From NCBI GenBank assembly GCA_021795965.1, contig JAJYOU010000003.1:62001-126000 (forward strand): 64,000 bases of DNA, read 5' to 3'. A program made the translations under genes and the position numbers. This DNA is from Chloroflexota bacterium. Its GTDB lineage: Bacteria; Chloroflexota; Anaerolineae; Anaerolineales; Villigracilaceae. Within the stretch, counting starts at the first letter, position 1, and every line of letters begins with the position of its first letter. The notes under the pieces were generated by a model. The model was not told where the DNA came from and ran no database searches. It worked only from the letters and a program-made list of their open reading frames with translations. Positions 38,736 through 43,601 of this stretch are shown in pieces.

Positions 38736-39674
38736 TCAGATCTCCCGGATTCGGGCACCGCAGGTGCGACAGAAGCGATCGCCTGGTTTGGCCAGCTTGC
38801 CGCATTGGGAACAATGAACCTCGCTGCTGCCAACCTCCTCCACTTCGAGCGCGCGTACAGAATGGCGCTTTCGGGATGAGCCTGCCCTTTCAGGTCCCTT
38901 TTTGGAAGTCCAGTAGATATACCCCGCAACCAGCAGACAAATCACTCCAAACCCAACCAGTAACCAGGGTGCATTCGCCGTGAGGTCTGAAAGCCAGGAG
39001 TTCCAGCCGGATTGACCTGGTAAATTTTGGTCGAGAGGAGCACTTGGTTGAACTTTTAGAAATGCAGTGCTGGGAGAATCGGTCTCTCGCTGATATTTGA
39101 TCACAAATGATAATTCCTGACCGGGTGCGAGATTGGTCCTGGTCATGCTGCTTAATTGAAAACCGTCAGTATCCACGGTTGAATTGGTCAGAGGCGGAAC
39201 AACACTCACATTGGTTGATTGCAAAGGCTGGCGAAATTCAAAACTGAAGTTTTTGACTGCATAATCTCCCAACCATTGATAGGTAAATTCCCGTTGATTA
39301 CCAGTTTTCAACAGGTTGGGATCATAATATTCGATCTGAAGAAAGCGACCAGTCGCGGTCAAATTTATTCGTGAGTAATCAGTGCTAGTCGTGAATGTTT
39401 TGATCACTCCTGCGTCTGATACCCTGTCAAACGCATCTCCCACCGCAACCGCCGAGAGTTCCTTGACACTGGCTGGTAAGCGTAAAATAACATCCGTTGG
39501 CAGGTTGACGCCCGGATCGAGCGCAATTTTATAAATCACCAGGGCGGTGGAGGTGTCATATTCTGGCCAAATACTCACGTCCATGGATTCAAAAGTGATA
39601 GGACTTTGAGCTTTCGCGCTGGCAGGAAAAATCAACAAGGCTAAAATGAAAATAATTATGAAATACTTTCGCAT
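38736..39674 (-). CDS. Exported beta-domain protein with transmembrane helix and C-terminal zinc ribbon
   Basis: 312 aa from the ATG at 39674 (GGAGG 7 nt upstream). Signal peptide (FIIIFILALLIFPASAKAQ), an extracytoplasmic beta-rich region (about 20-210), a transmembrane helix (about 229-250, NAPWLLVGFGVICLLVAGY), a basic stretch, and a C-terminal zinc ribbon CSQCGK-x(7)-FCRTCG. This plan (outside beta domain, helix, cytosolic metal knuckle) repeats the layout of the 24202-26184 gene's second half. Function unknown; convergent with the array. Confidence 0.7.
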   Translation of the reverse strand: MRKYFIIIFILALLIFPASAKAQSPITFESMDVSIWPEYDTSTALVIYKIALDPGVNLPTDVILRLPASVKELSAVAVGDAFDRVSDAGVIKTFTTSTDYSRINLTATGRFLQIEYYDPNLLKTGNQREFTYQWLGDYAVKNFSFEFRQPLQSTNVSVVPPLTNSTVDTDGFQLSSMTRTNLAPGQELSFVIKYQRETDSPSTAFLKVQPSAPLDQNLPGQSGWNSWLSDLTANAPWLLVGFGVICLLVAGYIYWTSKKGPERAGSSRKRHSVRALEVEEVGSSEVHCSQCGKLAKPGDRFCRTCGARIREI

Positions 39675-39865
39675 AACAGGACCTCCATCCAAGAAATACG
39701 AGCAGATATTACCATAAATTTTTAAGATTTATTTAAGTTAAAGAGGTTCTAACCAAGGTCTAAAGTTTCTAATGCCGGTTTTTTTTAACAGGATTCGCTT
39801 TCGCGCCCTCGTGATTCCCTTATCTAATAAGATCCGCCCAGGTCGAATTGGATATATTAACATGA

Positions 39866-39960: not shown

Positions 39961-40584
39961 ATGAGAATTTTTGTCATAGATGATCATTCCCTGTTTCGAG
40001 ATGGGGTTACCAGTTTGCTGAATGTCGGCGGGCATGATGTCGTCGGTCAGGCTGGGGATGGAAAAACAGCCCTGGAAAAAGTATTAACACTGCGACCTGA
40101 CCTGGTTTTGTTGGATATCAACTTGCCTGAAATGGATGGAATTCAGACTTTAAAGGAAATAAAAGCCGCCCTCCCTGAAACCAAAATCGTCATCCTGACT
40201 ATTTCCGAAGAAGATCATCATATTTTTTCAGCCATTAAAGCCGGGGCGGATGGTTACTTATTAAAATATCTGAATGCCCAGGAATTCCTCAAAATATTGG
40301 GTGAATTGGAGCATGGCATGCCTGCAGTTGATCCTTCGATCGCGGGACGTTTGTACAGACATTTTGGACAGGATGCAGTGGATTCCAGGGACCTGACTCT
40401 TTCCGAGAGGGAAATTGAAGTCCTTAAGCTGGTGGCTGAAGGCAAATCAAACCGCGATGTTGCCCAATCTCTTTCTATCAGCGAAAATACAATCAAATTC
40501 CACGTCAGGAAAATCATGGCGAAATTGAACACATCCAATCGGACCGAAACAGTCGTGGTGGCTTCACAAAAGAAATTGATCTAA
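39961..40584 (+). CDS. NarL/FixJ family response regulator
   Basis: 207 aa. Receiver domain with Asp7/Asp8, phospho-acceptor Asp52 (LLDINLP), Thr80 and Lys102 all in place; C-terminal LuxR-type HTH (LTLSEREIEVLKLVAEGKSNRDVAQSLSISENTIKFHVRKIMAKL). No sensor kinase is in the window, so it is an orphan here. Its position between the first array block and the pseudo-receiver suggests control of cytochrome gene expression, for example by redox state; inference. Confidence 0.93.
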   Translation: MRIFVIDDHSLFRDGVTSLLNVGGHDVVGQAGDGKTALEKVLTLRPDLVLLDINLPEMDGIQTLKEIKAALPETKIVILTISEEDHHIFSAIKAGADGYLLKYLNAQEFLKILGELEHGMPAVDPSIAGRLYRHFGQDAVDSRDLTLSEREIEVLKLVAEGKSNRDVAQSLSISENTIKFHVRKIMAKLNTSNRTETVVVASQKKLI

Positions 40585-40633: not shown

Positions 40634-40675
40634 AGGATTATTAAAACTATACTAAAGTGTAGTTTCAATAATCCT
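40634..40675. repeat. Near-perfect 42-nt hairpin/inverted repeat
   Basis: Arms at 40634-40653 and 40656-40675 match at 18 of 20 positions (begin AGGATTATT, end AATAATCCT) with a 2-nt loop. It starts 50 nt after the response regulator stop and ends 106 nt before the pseudo-receiver start. No T-run follows, so it is not a typical terminator. It may be a protein-binding palindrome or an RNA hairpin in the pseudo-receiver leader. Confidence 0.7.
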
Positions 40676-40780
40676 ATTTACCATCCTTTCGGCGATATCA
40701 ATCTACCTTTTGGAATGTTGTCTCATTTAATTTTAATATTATAATTGTTCGATAATTCACAATATGATGAAATTGGGCTT

Positions 40781-41167
40781 ATGATCACCTTTGCGGTAAT
40801 ATCAGATCATTCTTTGATGATGGAAGGGATTATTTCCCGTCTTTCATTAATCGAGCCTCCTATTATCGTTCACCTGATGGAATCTGCTCAAAAATCAGTG
40901 ATCGAAGAGTTGGTGACCACACAGCCCGAGGTCATCATCGTTGAATCCAAAATATTAAGCAACCCTGTTATTTTTTCACTAAACCGCTTATTTACCGAAT
41001 TATCCAGGGTTGTTGTCATTGAGGTCAGCTTGCATTCATCAATTATACAGATCATTGGAAGCAATCAATACGAAGCTTCCAGCGTTTCAGATTTAATCTC
41101 CATTTTTCAAAATGTTTCCGGGTACCCGCCGGCAGATGTTAATTCCTTTAAGGCAGTTGTGTGTTGA
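40781..41167 (+). CDS. Stand-alone degenerate receiver domain (Asp-to-Glu), no output domain
   Basis: 128 aa from the ATG at 40781. It aligns with the receiver half of the preceding regulator: VISDHSLMMEG matches VIDDHSLFRDG and PEVIIVESK matches PDLVLLDIN. One acidic pocket residue is Ser (Asp7-to-Ser8), the phospho-acceptor Asp is Glu55, and the usual Thr and Lys are not conserved. No DNA-binding domain follows; the frame ends at 41167, 4 nt before the multihaem gene. Glu in place of Asp often mimics the phosphorylated state, so this may be a constitutively active partner or inhibitor. It might equally be a decaying copy; the frame is intact and coupled to the next gene. Confidence 0.6.
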   Translation: MITFAVISDHSLMMEGIISRLSLIEPPIIVHLMESAQKSVIEELVTTQPEVIIVESKILSNPVIFSLNRLFTELSRVVVIEVSLHSSIIQIIGSNQYEASSVSDLISIFQNVSGYPPADVNSFKAVVC

Positions 41168-41171
41168 GACC

Positions 41172-42443
41172 ATGAGAATTAATTCACTTATCGTTCGCTC
41201 TTTTGTCCTGATTTTTATCATATTCACTGCGCTGGTCTTGTTAACGAGTATGAATACGACCAGCGTTTCTGCGCATGCCAGGTTTGACCTGACAGGAACC
41301 CCAGCCCCCCAGGCCAGTGCCACTCCTCCCCCTCAAGTCAGCTCAGCCACCCCGCTTCCTGACTCCAATCCACACATCAACGGAGTATGCCTGGGTTGCC
41401 ATGGAAAAATAAAGATGCAAGGCAGGTTGGCGAATGGTGAGTTAATTACACTCAATATCAAAATGCTGACCGACCAGAGTTCCTTCCACACCCAGAAGGG
41501 CGTGAGCTGCACCATCTGCCATCAGGATCAGGTCAATTATCCGCATAAAGGTTCCGCCGATGATTCATGCGCAACCTGTCATCCGCAATCGGTCGACATC
41601 GCTCCAGATTCTGAAGAGACTTTCACTTTTATTCTTCCGTTTAAGGACACCCGAGACCTGGCAATTTCTCTCTCCATAGCCTGTCAAAAATGCCATGGAG
41701 ATAAATTCGAGCAAGTAAAAAACAGCTCGCACACGAAGTTGCTGGCTGAAGGCAATACTGCCACCCCGGTTTGTGTGGATTGCCATACCGGGCATGATAT
41801 TGTCACGGTCGACAGGCAAACGGTTTCAAAAGTCTGCCAGAAATGCCACATGACTGAATACACCGCTTATAAAGCCAGCATCCACGGTTCAGCCCTCGAA
41901 AAGGAAAGCAACCAGGATGTTCCCACCTGCTCCGATTGTCACGGCTCACATGACGTTAAAGGCCCAAGTGATAACAGCTTCCGTCAGACCGCTGCAACTG
42001 AGATTTGCGGCAAATGCCACACCAATAAAGCGATTATGGATAAATACGGCATATCCACCAATGTCCTGACGACTTACATGGACGACGTTCATGGCCGGAC
42101 CTCACTTCTGGGCGGTATTGATAAAAGTGGTATTGTCAAAGCCACCTGCTATGATTGTCACGGCACACATGATATCCTGACTCCTTCCAATCCGTATTCC
42201 AAGGTTTACCCGGAAAACCTGCAGAAGACTTGCCAGCAGTGTCACAAGGATGCCAATATCACCTTTCCTGAAGCCTGGTTGAGCCACAAAACTCCTTCAA
42301 TGAATTCAATGCCTGCATTATTTCTGACAAACCGCTATGCGCTGGACATGGTCGGCATCATCGCAGGTTTGATCGTCCTCTTCATTCTTCTTGACGTTCG
42401 CCGGCAGCTTTCCATGAAAGCCAGGGAACCTGAAAATGAGTAA
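41172..42443 (+). CDS. Decahaem cytochrome c with C-terminal membrane anchor (copy 3)
   Basis: 423 aa from the ATG at 41172, 4 nt after the pseudo-receiver stop. Signal/anchor (about 8-33), a Pro/Ala-rich linker, ten CxxCH motifs (CLGCH, CTICH, CATCH, CQKCH, CVDCH, CQKCH, CSDCH, CGKCH, CYDCH, CQQCH), and a C-terminal transmembrane helix (about 388-410). It shares KYGIST, CYDCHGTHDI and the late segments with copies 1 and 2 and has one extra haem near the N-terminus. Extracytoplasmic; forms a pair with the cytochrome b gene 21 nt downstream. Confidence 0.9.
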   Translation: MRINSLIVRSFVLIFIIFTALVLLTSMNTTSVSAHARFDLTGTPAPQASATPPPQVSSATPLPDSNPHINGVCLGCHGKIKMQGRLANGELITLNIKMLTDQSSFHTQKGVSCTICHQDQVNYPHKGSADDSCATCHPQSVDIAPDSEETFTFILPFKDTRDLAISLSIACQKCHGDKFEQVKNSSHTKLLAEGNTATPVCVDCHTGHDIVTVDRQTVSKVCQKCHMTEYTAYKASIHGSALEKESNQDVPTCSDCHGSHDVKGPSDNSFRQTAATEICGKCHTNKAIMDKYGISTNVLTTYMDDVHGRTSLLGGIDKSGIVKATCYDCHGTHDILTPSNPYSKVYPENLQKTCQQCHKDANITFPEAWLSHKTPSMNSMPALFLTNRYALDMVGIIAGLIVLFILLDVRRQLSMKAREPENE

Positions 42444-42464: not shown

Positions 42465-43601
42465 ATGACAAATATGAAAGAACAAAAACCTACTTACAAG
42501 AAATTTCGCCAACGGGCAACCCGCCGGGATGCTATAGACGCATTTACCCACCTTGAACCCGTGCGGGAGGGACACAATTACCTGATTCGTTTCTCCAAAG
42601 AATCACGAATTGAGCATCTTGTTTTAATGATTTCTGTGTTCATGCTGGCTTTGACCGGACTTTCCCAAACGTTTATGGTTCACCCCTTTGGTAAATTTAT
42701 TTTAACTTCCCTGGGTGGTTTGGAATCTACTCAGAATATCCATCATTTTTTTGCGTTGTTGCTCGGACTTTTGGCAGCCTTTCATTTATTGTTCGTACTC
42801 GATGGACTCTTCGTTCGCCGCATTAACTTCAAGATGATTCAGCCGCTGGATGACCTCAAAAATATCTTTCACATGTTTGGTCTCCTGCTCGGATTCTACA
42901 AAAAATTGCCGATTTTTGATCGTTACAAACCCGACGAAAAATTTATTTACTGGATGACCGTTAAAGCGGTCATTTTTTCGGGACTGACCGGTCTCCTGAT
43001 GCTCTACCCCGTCCAGGCACTTCAACTGGTGCCGGGCAGTGTTTACCCGTTCGCGGTGCTCATTCACCGCTGGATGGCTATCCTGGTGGTCCTGATCGTC
43101 GTAGTTTTGCATGGATACCAGACCCTCGTAATTCGCAGGAACTGGAGTATTTTTAACGGACGGATGGCATTAATCGACATGAAGGAAGAACATCCTGTCG
43201 AGCTGGCGTATCTCAACCAGGCAGCACTGCTCAAGGATGACAAGCATTGGCCGCATTTCATCGAATTTTCGGTCGAAGTGCCGCGAGCCGGGAGAATTTT
43301 CGTCTATGACCAGGAAATGGAACCTGCTGCAGAAAACGTCACGCAGCCCGCTGTCTCACCCTCAGCTGAATCTACACCACCAATCCCCGAAGCAGTTCCC
43401 CTGCCTACAGAATTGACCCCTCAAAACGTCAGGGAACCCGATCAGGAGAGCCTGGTCCACGAGGAAAAACTGCCTCAAGCCGAGATGAATGAACTCAAGA
43501 CACCAGAATCAACAGCCCTGGCAGCAGTTTCTGCGGAGGATCCTGCCAACAGTGACGAAATCGTCCCTGACAACCAGGCTGATCAAGCGGATTCAAGCTG
43601 A
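42465..43601 (+). CDS. Di-haem cytochrome b with long acidic C-terminal tail (copy 3)
   Basis: 378 aa. His51/His107 (56 apart) and His201/His216 (15 apart) match copies 1 and 2 exactly, so both haems are probably bound. The WHFYHVHI segment of the other copies is LHGYQTLVI here. After residue about 275 comes a Pro/Glu-rich low-complexity tail (QPAVSPSAESTPPIPEA and similar), probably disordered and cytosolic, in the place of the extra helix and cytochrome c domain of copy 2. The last gene of the array. Confidence 0.88.
   Translation: MTNMKEQKPTYKKFRQRATRRDAIDAFTHLEPVREGHNYLIRFSKESRIEHLVLMISVFMLALTGLSQTFMVHPFGKFILTSLGGLESTQNIHHFFALLLGLLAAFHLLFVLDGLFVRRINFKMIQPLDDLKNIFHMFGLLLGFYKKLPIFDRYKPDEKFIYWMTVKAVIFSGLTGLLMLYPVQALQLVPGSVYPFAVLIHRWMAILVVLIVVVLHGYQTLVIRRNWSIFNGRMALIDMKEEHPVELAYLNQAALLKDDKHWPHFIEFSVEVPRAGRIFVYDQEMEPAAENVTQPAVSPSAESTPPIPEAVPLPTELTPQNVREPDQESLVHEEKLPQAEMNELKTPESTALAAVSAEDPANSDEIVPDNQADQADSS

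Follow-up and report, generated by a model that had tools for sequence, protein, structure and literature searches.

The protein encoded at 40781–41167 (+) of the window—the whole 64,000-nucleotide stretch of DNA analysed here—is described less well as a phosphomimic than as a stand-alone, α4-less pseudo-receiver at the head of a respiratory operon. Its family is under selection, its gene follows that of a regulator and leads a cytochrome operon, helically phased, inverted half-sites lie upstream, and its phosphorylation pocket is broken. In the AlphaFold models helix α4 is missing, whereas helix α1 is the best conserved element. As a whole, the explanation that we favour—with a probability of roughly 45%—is that of a regulator-induced, phosphorylation-blind accessory pseudo-receiver, which acts by protein contact as feedback. 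How bacterial pseudo-receivers work is itself called an open question in the excerpted text of a recent review (Bourret et al. 2025, PMC12632262).

The reading frame runs intact over 128 aa from the ATG at 40781 to the TGA at 41165–41167; an alternative in-frame TTG at 40745 would give 140 aa, but the alignment favours the start at 40781. A first-pass annotation had proposed that the protein shares the receiver fold of the preceding response regulator. Compared as single sequences, the two share 23% over 79 aa (E 0.018), while hhalign, a profile–profile comparison, matches the family to its neighbouring regulators at 97.2% across 117 columns and bears out the receiver origin. In the profile comparison, the kinship with NarL/LuxR-family receivers spans β1–α1 to β4, and common descent with the receiver domain (PF00072) follows from the same comparison. 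We conclude that the pseudo-receiver derives from the receiver domain of a NarL-family protein and would serve a redox-type two-component system as an accessory third component. The window protein itself has no Pfam match at E ≤ 1.

The altered pocket is present as first annotated: Ser8 replaces the first acidic-pocket Asp, Glu55 occupies the acceptor position, the Lys segment is deleted, and an output domain is absent, while Asp9, the second pocket residue, is kept. The claim that the Thr is lost applies to the relatives, which mostly carry Asp or Asn at this position (36/56 rows), but not to the window, where both alignments place Ser83, an allowed residue. Taking the five-residue receiver definition from the excerpted review (PMC12632262), the protein lacks the full PF00072 set of D, D, D, T, and K and falls under the broad definition of a pseudo-receiver, namely a receiver homologue with at least one of the five missing. 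The term aspartate-less receiver (ALR) fits the window's clade, but not the family as a whole.

Relatives were found in a first survey of 61 genomes—the window's own and related ones. A ten-member profile was searched against 400 genomes of the order, of which 37 match at E ≤ 6.4e-15, and a further set of relatives was found in the class. Weaker members occur in other parts of the phylum: at E ≤ 1e-10, 14/400 genomes match, and ten of these do not belong to the class. A search of named genomes with the single window protein gave no match. None of 44 family members matched PF00072 at E ≤ 0.1, nor, at the same threshold, the minor pseudo-receiver families PF06490, PF21155, PF21194, PF21695, PF21714, and PF22368, whose list was taken from the excerpted PMC12632262. 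A profile search of PDB sequences returned weak unrelated matches only, and a literature search, which left out most subscription-journal papers, yielded no paper on this family. In three class-level relatives the pseudo-receiver forms the N-terminal part of a 370–400 aa protein (L105 691–1842 (−), L106 1432–2640, and L115 1492–2613), the remainder of which matches DUF166 (PF02593); a LuxR regulator again lies upstream.

The family is almost certainly a conserved one and not a product of decay, because it shows purifying selection and a conserved gene order. NG86 dN/dS values of the pseudo-receiver in close pairs—some pairs are saturated in dS and give none—are 0.016 (L055/L056), 0.051 (L080/L081), 0.081 (L077/L080), 0.155 (L061/L063), and 0.161 (L076/L082), with a maximum of 0.229 (L087/L088). 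This range is much like that of the regulator, which gives 0.034, 0.057, 0.061, 0.113, and 0.107 for the first five pairs. That the gene is a decaying duplicate of the neighbouring receiver could be read from its divergence from this neighbour (23% over 79 aa) and from a truncated second copy in another genome; for the family it is refuted by dN/dS values of 0.016–0.23 and a gene order conserved across families, which leave it a negligible probability. The first-pass view of an intact gene stands: it is open and selected. The truncated copy, L058 7846–8031 (−), precedes a six-haem gene and is a decaying paralogue.

At position 55, the 56 aligned rows carry D (33), E (14), N (4), S (2), and Y, H, and M (one each), so that the residue is acidic in 47/56 and the window shares the absence of Asp at the acceptor position with 22 other rows. 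D is absent from position 8 in 56/56 rows and present at position 9 in 7 of 56, and Pro49 is invariant. In a tree built without columns 55 and 81, 12 of the 14 Glu55 rows, including the window, make up the whole of one clade (support 95/94), and E versus non-E requires three changes. Conservation of the Glu among homologues, which the first-pass annotation had proposed to check, thus divides: the residue is fixed within one clade (12/12), but most members carry Asp (33/56). Glu55 is therefore best seen as a substitution particular to this clade, at a site where most members carry an acid. An apparent coupling of Glu55 with Glu81—the latter found in 10/14 Glu55 rows versus 1/33 Asp55 rows—was rejected, as independent pairs do not support it and shared descent explains it.

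What unites the family is the loss of the first pocket Asp (56/56), of the Lys and, in the AlphaFold models, of helix α4, a change that the first-pass annotation did not note; a standard phosphomimetic role for Glu55 is hence unlikely. The idea, raised at first pass, of a receiver held constitutively active by a Glu55 that imitates phospho-Asp draws on the fixation of the replacement in all 12 rows of one clade and on the three changes that the tree requires. It is weakened by the restriction of Glu mainly to this clade and by the Asp kept in 33/56 relatives, and the protein lacks the Lys and an output domain. Moreover, a phosphomimic would act through the α4–β5–α5 output face, of which α4 is missing from the models. 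We consider this idea highly improbable. Standard phosphorylation signalling by the window pseudo-receiver is likewise unlikely, because the metal pocket is broken, the Lys is absent, and the models show no α4.

Structure prediction, suggested along with the first-pass annotation, was applied to the window protein (AlphaFold2; pLDDT 86, pTM 0.76) and to a D-type relative (pLDDT 88.8, pTM 0.80); as the alignments behind the two models consist largely of the same rows, they are not independent and amount nearly to one result seen twice. Both display β1–α1–β2–α2–β3–α3, a β4–β5 hairpin, and α5—with helix α4 missing—and so depart from the (βα)5 fold of PF00072. The best Foldseek match is the NarL-family regulator EvgA (E 0.005). 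In VIA-align, RcsB (Z 9.3) and the CikA pseudo-receiver 5jyu (Z 9.2; 85 residues, 3.1 Å) are tied, each over about 85 residues that fall mostly within residues 1–93. Across 50 rows, α1 reaches a mean relative entropy of 2.40, the highest conservation of any element. Cys65 is present in 26/49 members, with Phe65 in the window.

In the window, the gene is preceded by a NarL/LuxR-type response regulator (39961–40584 (+); Response_reg and GerE) with intact D, D, D, T, and K sites, which is the proposed controller and a possible partner. It is followed, 4 nt after its stop codon, by the ATG at 41172 of a decahaem cytochrome c with ten CxxCH motifs (41172–42443 (+); the ORF finder extends its start to 41112), and this short gap supports the probable co-expression noted at first pass. 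The next gene of the array encodes a cytochrome b561-type membrane protein (42465–43601 (+)). Divergent from the regulator, a gene for a zinc-ribbon-ended protein (38736–39692 (−)) sits where most relatives have a haem-c sensor kinase.

Across the order and the class, the arrangement haem-c sensor kinase–NarL/LuxR regulator–pseudo-receiver–multihaem cytochrome c recurs. The gene order was read at 59 places, including as much as 6 kb of flanking sequence to either side; 44 of them are core (A1 score ≥ 65) and 15 remote. A regulator lies within 500 nt upstream on the same strand in 34/39 core places with at least 1200 nt of upstream sequence, the exceptions being L058 (twice), L118 (where it lies at 1361 nt), L119, and L120; a multihaem cytochrome follows within 300 nt in 38/40 core places with at least 800 nt downstream, the exceptions being L067 and L122. 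Of 28 core places that have a regulator and 2800 nt of upstream sequence, 21 show a kinase with one or more CxxCH motifs directly upstream. Kinase, true regulator, and pseudo-receiver are hence encoded together in these 21/28 core relatives, while the window has no adjacent kinase. Remote members (A1 score < 65) keep the regulator in 12/13 cases and the cytochrome in 1/12. Some of them precede other membrane or energy genes (L085 5991–9596, L089 5986–10784 (−), and L125 4777–6391 (−)), whose products appear efflux-pump-like, NADH-dehydrogenase-like, and oxidase-like by eye from the ORF starts.

In genome G371 (L158 1373–5149), kinase, regulator, operator-like repeat, and decahaem gene occur without a pseudo-receiver—a natural experiment—and the kinase–regulator pairs of G254 and G172 likewise lack it; such loci indicate that the pseudo-receiver is dispensable to the layout. 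Conversely, L119 and L120 are linked to cytochromes with no regulator upstream in the available sequence, and L058 has two copies without a regulator, so that the protein may be tied in the first place to the cytochromes. Directly upstream of the regulator-less pseudo-receiver genes of L119 and L120, ORFs with 24 CxxCH motifs are found (L119 3506–5773 and L120 2151–4745).

The 196-nt gap before the window pseudo-receiver holds a 42-nt, near-perfect inverted repeat (40634–40675; 20-nt arms, 90%) with an operator-like core, CTATACTAAAGTGTAG (40647–40662), which the first-pass annotation had overlooked. A further half-site, CTACC (40703–40707 (+)), lies 56 nt downstream of the start of this core. 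The core, CTATAC-TAAA-GTGTAG, keeps the outer bases and the spacing of the family motif but deviates from its consensus of the CTACCC-N4-GGGTAG type; the window holds no second site of this kind, yet 0.24 are expected by chance, and taken alone the core could be a chance occurrence. Across the family, CTACCC/GGGTAG is the most enriched hexamer, found in 31/38 gaps between regulator and pseudo-receiver against a shuffle mean of 4.2, and inverted CTACC/GGTAG pairs occur in 24/38 gaps against a shuffle mean of 0.33 and a maximum of 2. In 46 upstream regions the half-sites are spaced by 11 nt (13 pairs), 22–24 nt (23), and 32–35 nt (13) and concentrate 100–175 nt before the start; they number 4.36 per kb in the sequence preceding the gene, compared with 1.27 per kb in the rest of the loci. 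At least two half-sites lie within 450 nt in 40/60 places, and some regions have none. Sites also precede pseudo-receivers without an adjacent regulator (L118, L119, and L120) and occur in the regulator–cytochrome gap of G371, where the pseudo-receiver is absent.

NarL-family proteins bind short inverted heptamers. Given the helically phased, inverted half-sites in the preceding gap, the neighbouring regulator probably drives a cytochrome operon of which the pseudo-receiver gene is the first. Reading the hairpins of the regulator gap as terminators was rejected, since spacings of 11/22/33 nt and sites at regulator-less genes fit an operator better; a terminator scan of the window found none. 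In the 5-Mb genome G001 a single copy of the 16-nt palindrome exists, at the pseudo-receiver promoter; G000, the window's genome, has two, one of them at this promoter. The other copy, a perfect-type palindrome (CTACCCGGGCGGGTAG, G000:C10:81200–81215), is a possible further target of the regulator. A backward-read control was commoner than the palindrome in G000, G001, and G004 and rarer in G006; across these four genomes the motif thus shows no genome-wide enrichment. A Crp-like TTGTG-N6..10-CACAA is present in 6/46 regions versus 0.09 in shuffles. Just before the pseudo-receiver start, the window (40745–40762) and many relatives carry TTCACAA, sometimes as TTGTG-N8-CACAA, which is perhaps a promoter element or a Crp/Fnr-type site.

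The upstream kinase comprises HAMP, HisKA_3, and HATPase domains, and in six kinases scanned with Pfam its periplasmic stretch weakly resembles Mcp40H-20_sensor, with no match to DUF3365. In seven two-motif kinases the CxxCH motifs are exactly 36 residues apart; periplasmic two-CxxCH kinases include L128 1181–2674, L053 7268–8740 (−), and L064 7118–8596 (−). Among 400 genomes of the order, 28 have both kinase and pseudo-receiver, 5 the kinase only, 9 the pseudo-receiver only, and 358 neither (odds ratio 223). One of the nine genomes with a pseudo-receiver but no full haem-c kinase match, G006, is 94% complete. No haem-c kinase was found in the window's genome, which is 62% complete; its sole full-length kinase match, G000:C20, was rejected as a partner, having no CxxCH and a regulator of its own. 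Three loci keep the pseudo-receiver although they lack a haem-c kinase next to it and their regulators have a mutated pocket. The acidic sites of these regulators read D-H-E in L059 (6558–7205 (−)), D-R-E in L090 (5663–6298), and D-K-E in L092 (552–1196 (−)), with Thr and Lys retained. A link between kinase loss and the Asp-to-Glu change at the phosphorylation site of the regulator would have these three cases behind it, too few for a test.

In the favoured explanation, the regulator would bind the phased sites and activate the cytochrome operon, and the pseudo-receiver, as the first product of this operon, would be made when the regulator is active. Blind to phosphorylation, it would act by protein contact through the kept α1 (and α5) face—most likely by pairing with the receiver of the regulator and tuning its output, where a limiting effect, as feedback, is favoured. 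Receivers use α1 to contact kinases, and some NarL-type regulators also use it to contact their dimer partners. The regulator is a more likely partner than the kinase alone, because the pseudo-receiver persists where an adjacent haem-c kinase is missing and the regulator pocket is mutated.

The partner might nevertheless be the kinase, a version of the decoy already suggested at first pass: the pseudo-receiver would use α1 to dock on the DHp helices of this haem-c sensor protein and lower autophosphorylation or transfer. The strong conservation of α1, the kinase directly upstream of the regulator in 21/28 core places with room, and the co-occurrence in the order (odds ratio 223) agree with such an attenuator, as does the precedent of the CikA pseudo-receiver, which lowers kinase activity according to the excerpted PMC6378743. 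It has to accommodate nine genomes without a full haem-c kinase match—among them the 94% complete G006—as well as L059, L090, and L092, which keep the pseudo-receiver although the phosphorylation pocket of their regulators is lost, and a window without an adjacent kinase. We consider the decoy idea rather unlikely.

Two further readings we regard as improbable. In the first, which takes up the haem or redox sensing suggested at first pass, a remodelled pocket might bind quinone, haem, or a metal and relay the redox state to a partner. The acid retained at position 55 in 47/56 rows despite the loss of the pocket, Cys65 in 26/49 members, and the respiratory neighbours would suit a sensor, and CikA and KaiA bind quinone analogues (excerpted in PMC6378743); yet, the window has Phe65 in place of Cys65, the residues around the pocket vary widely, and the likeness to these quinone-binding pseudo-receivers is structural only (Z 9.2). 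Alternatively, the protein could be a nonregulatory part of the cytochrome operon, e.g., a factor that helps multihaem cytochromes to assemble or dock. Its linkage to cytochromes (38/40 core places) is as strong as that to regulators, and L119 and L120 have cytochromes with no regulator upstream. Against this role, remote members keep the regulator (12/13) and not the cytochrome (1/12), and the protein is of receiver descent with a conserved α1.

The bacterial pseudo-receivers reviewed by Bourret et al. are likewise receiver homologues without catalytic residues, and the excerpted review proposes that such proteins may act via contact with other two-component parts, including those of CmrRST (PMC12632262). 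The window family differs from them in that neither PF00072 nor the pseudo-receiver Pfams match it, α4 is absent in its models, and the protein stands alone. In CmrRST of Clostridioides difficile, kinase, regulator, and pseudo-receiver protein are also encoded together (excerpted in PMC12632262), but CmrT is an OmpR-family response regulator, as given in the excerpted PMC12548384, whereas the window pseudo-receiver has no DNA-binding domain, its family's neighbours are of the NarL and haem-c types, and its gene leads a cytochrome operon. CikA and KaiA offer phosphorylation-blind receiver folds as well, yet as domains of larger proteins, and the CikA pseudo-receiver has five helices including α4 (excerpted in PMC6378743). 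NarL/LuxR-family receivers (EvgA, RcsB, NarL, and DosR) share the β1–α1 to β4 kinship and provide the best Foldseek matches; the window pseudo-receiver lacks their catalytic pocket, Lys, α4, and HTH. The upstream kinases of the relatives resemble sCache_heme/DUF3365 sensor kinases, in which an extracytoplasmic c-haem sensor is fused to a kinase and whose sensor domain is, in the excerpted text of PMC12889525, rare or absent in Chloroflexota; they differ from these in giving weak Mcp40H-20_sensor rather than DUF3365 matches and in the 36-residue distance between their two CxxCH motifs.

The size of the family, its fixed gene setting, the readable promoter, the adjacent candidate partner, and the variation found in nature—in the acceptor residue (Asp, Glu, Asn, or Ser) and in the presence or absence of the kinase and of the pseudo-receiver—make the feedback, decoy, and sensing models separable by simple assays. 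As a more tentative extension, which we consider doubtful, the α4-less, phosphorylation-blind single-domain receivers might serve the haem-sensing two-component systems of Chloroflexota as a third component of their own. They would be induced by the regulator along with the cytochromes through helically phased operators and pair with the regulator or the kinase, as feedback built into the expression of respiratory electron-transfer genes; in some lineages the kinase would be lost, leaving regulator and pseudo-receiver as a phosphorylation-independent pair. The family offers a way to read the multihaem cytochrome regulon in uncultured Chloroflexi.
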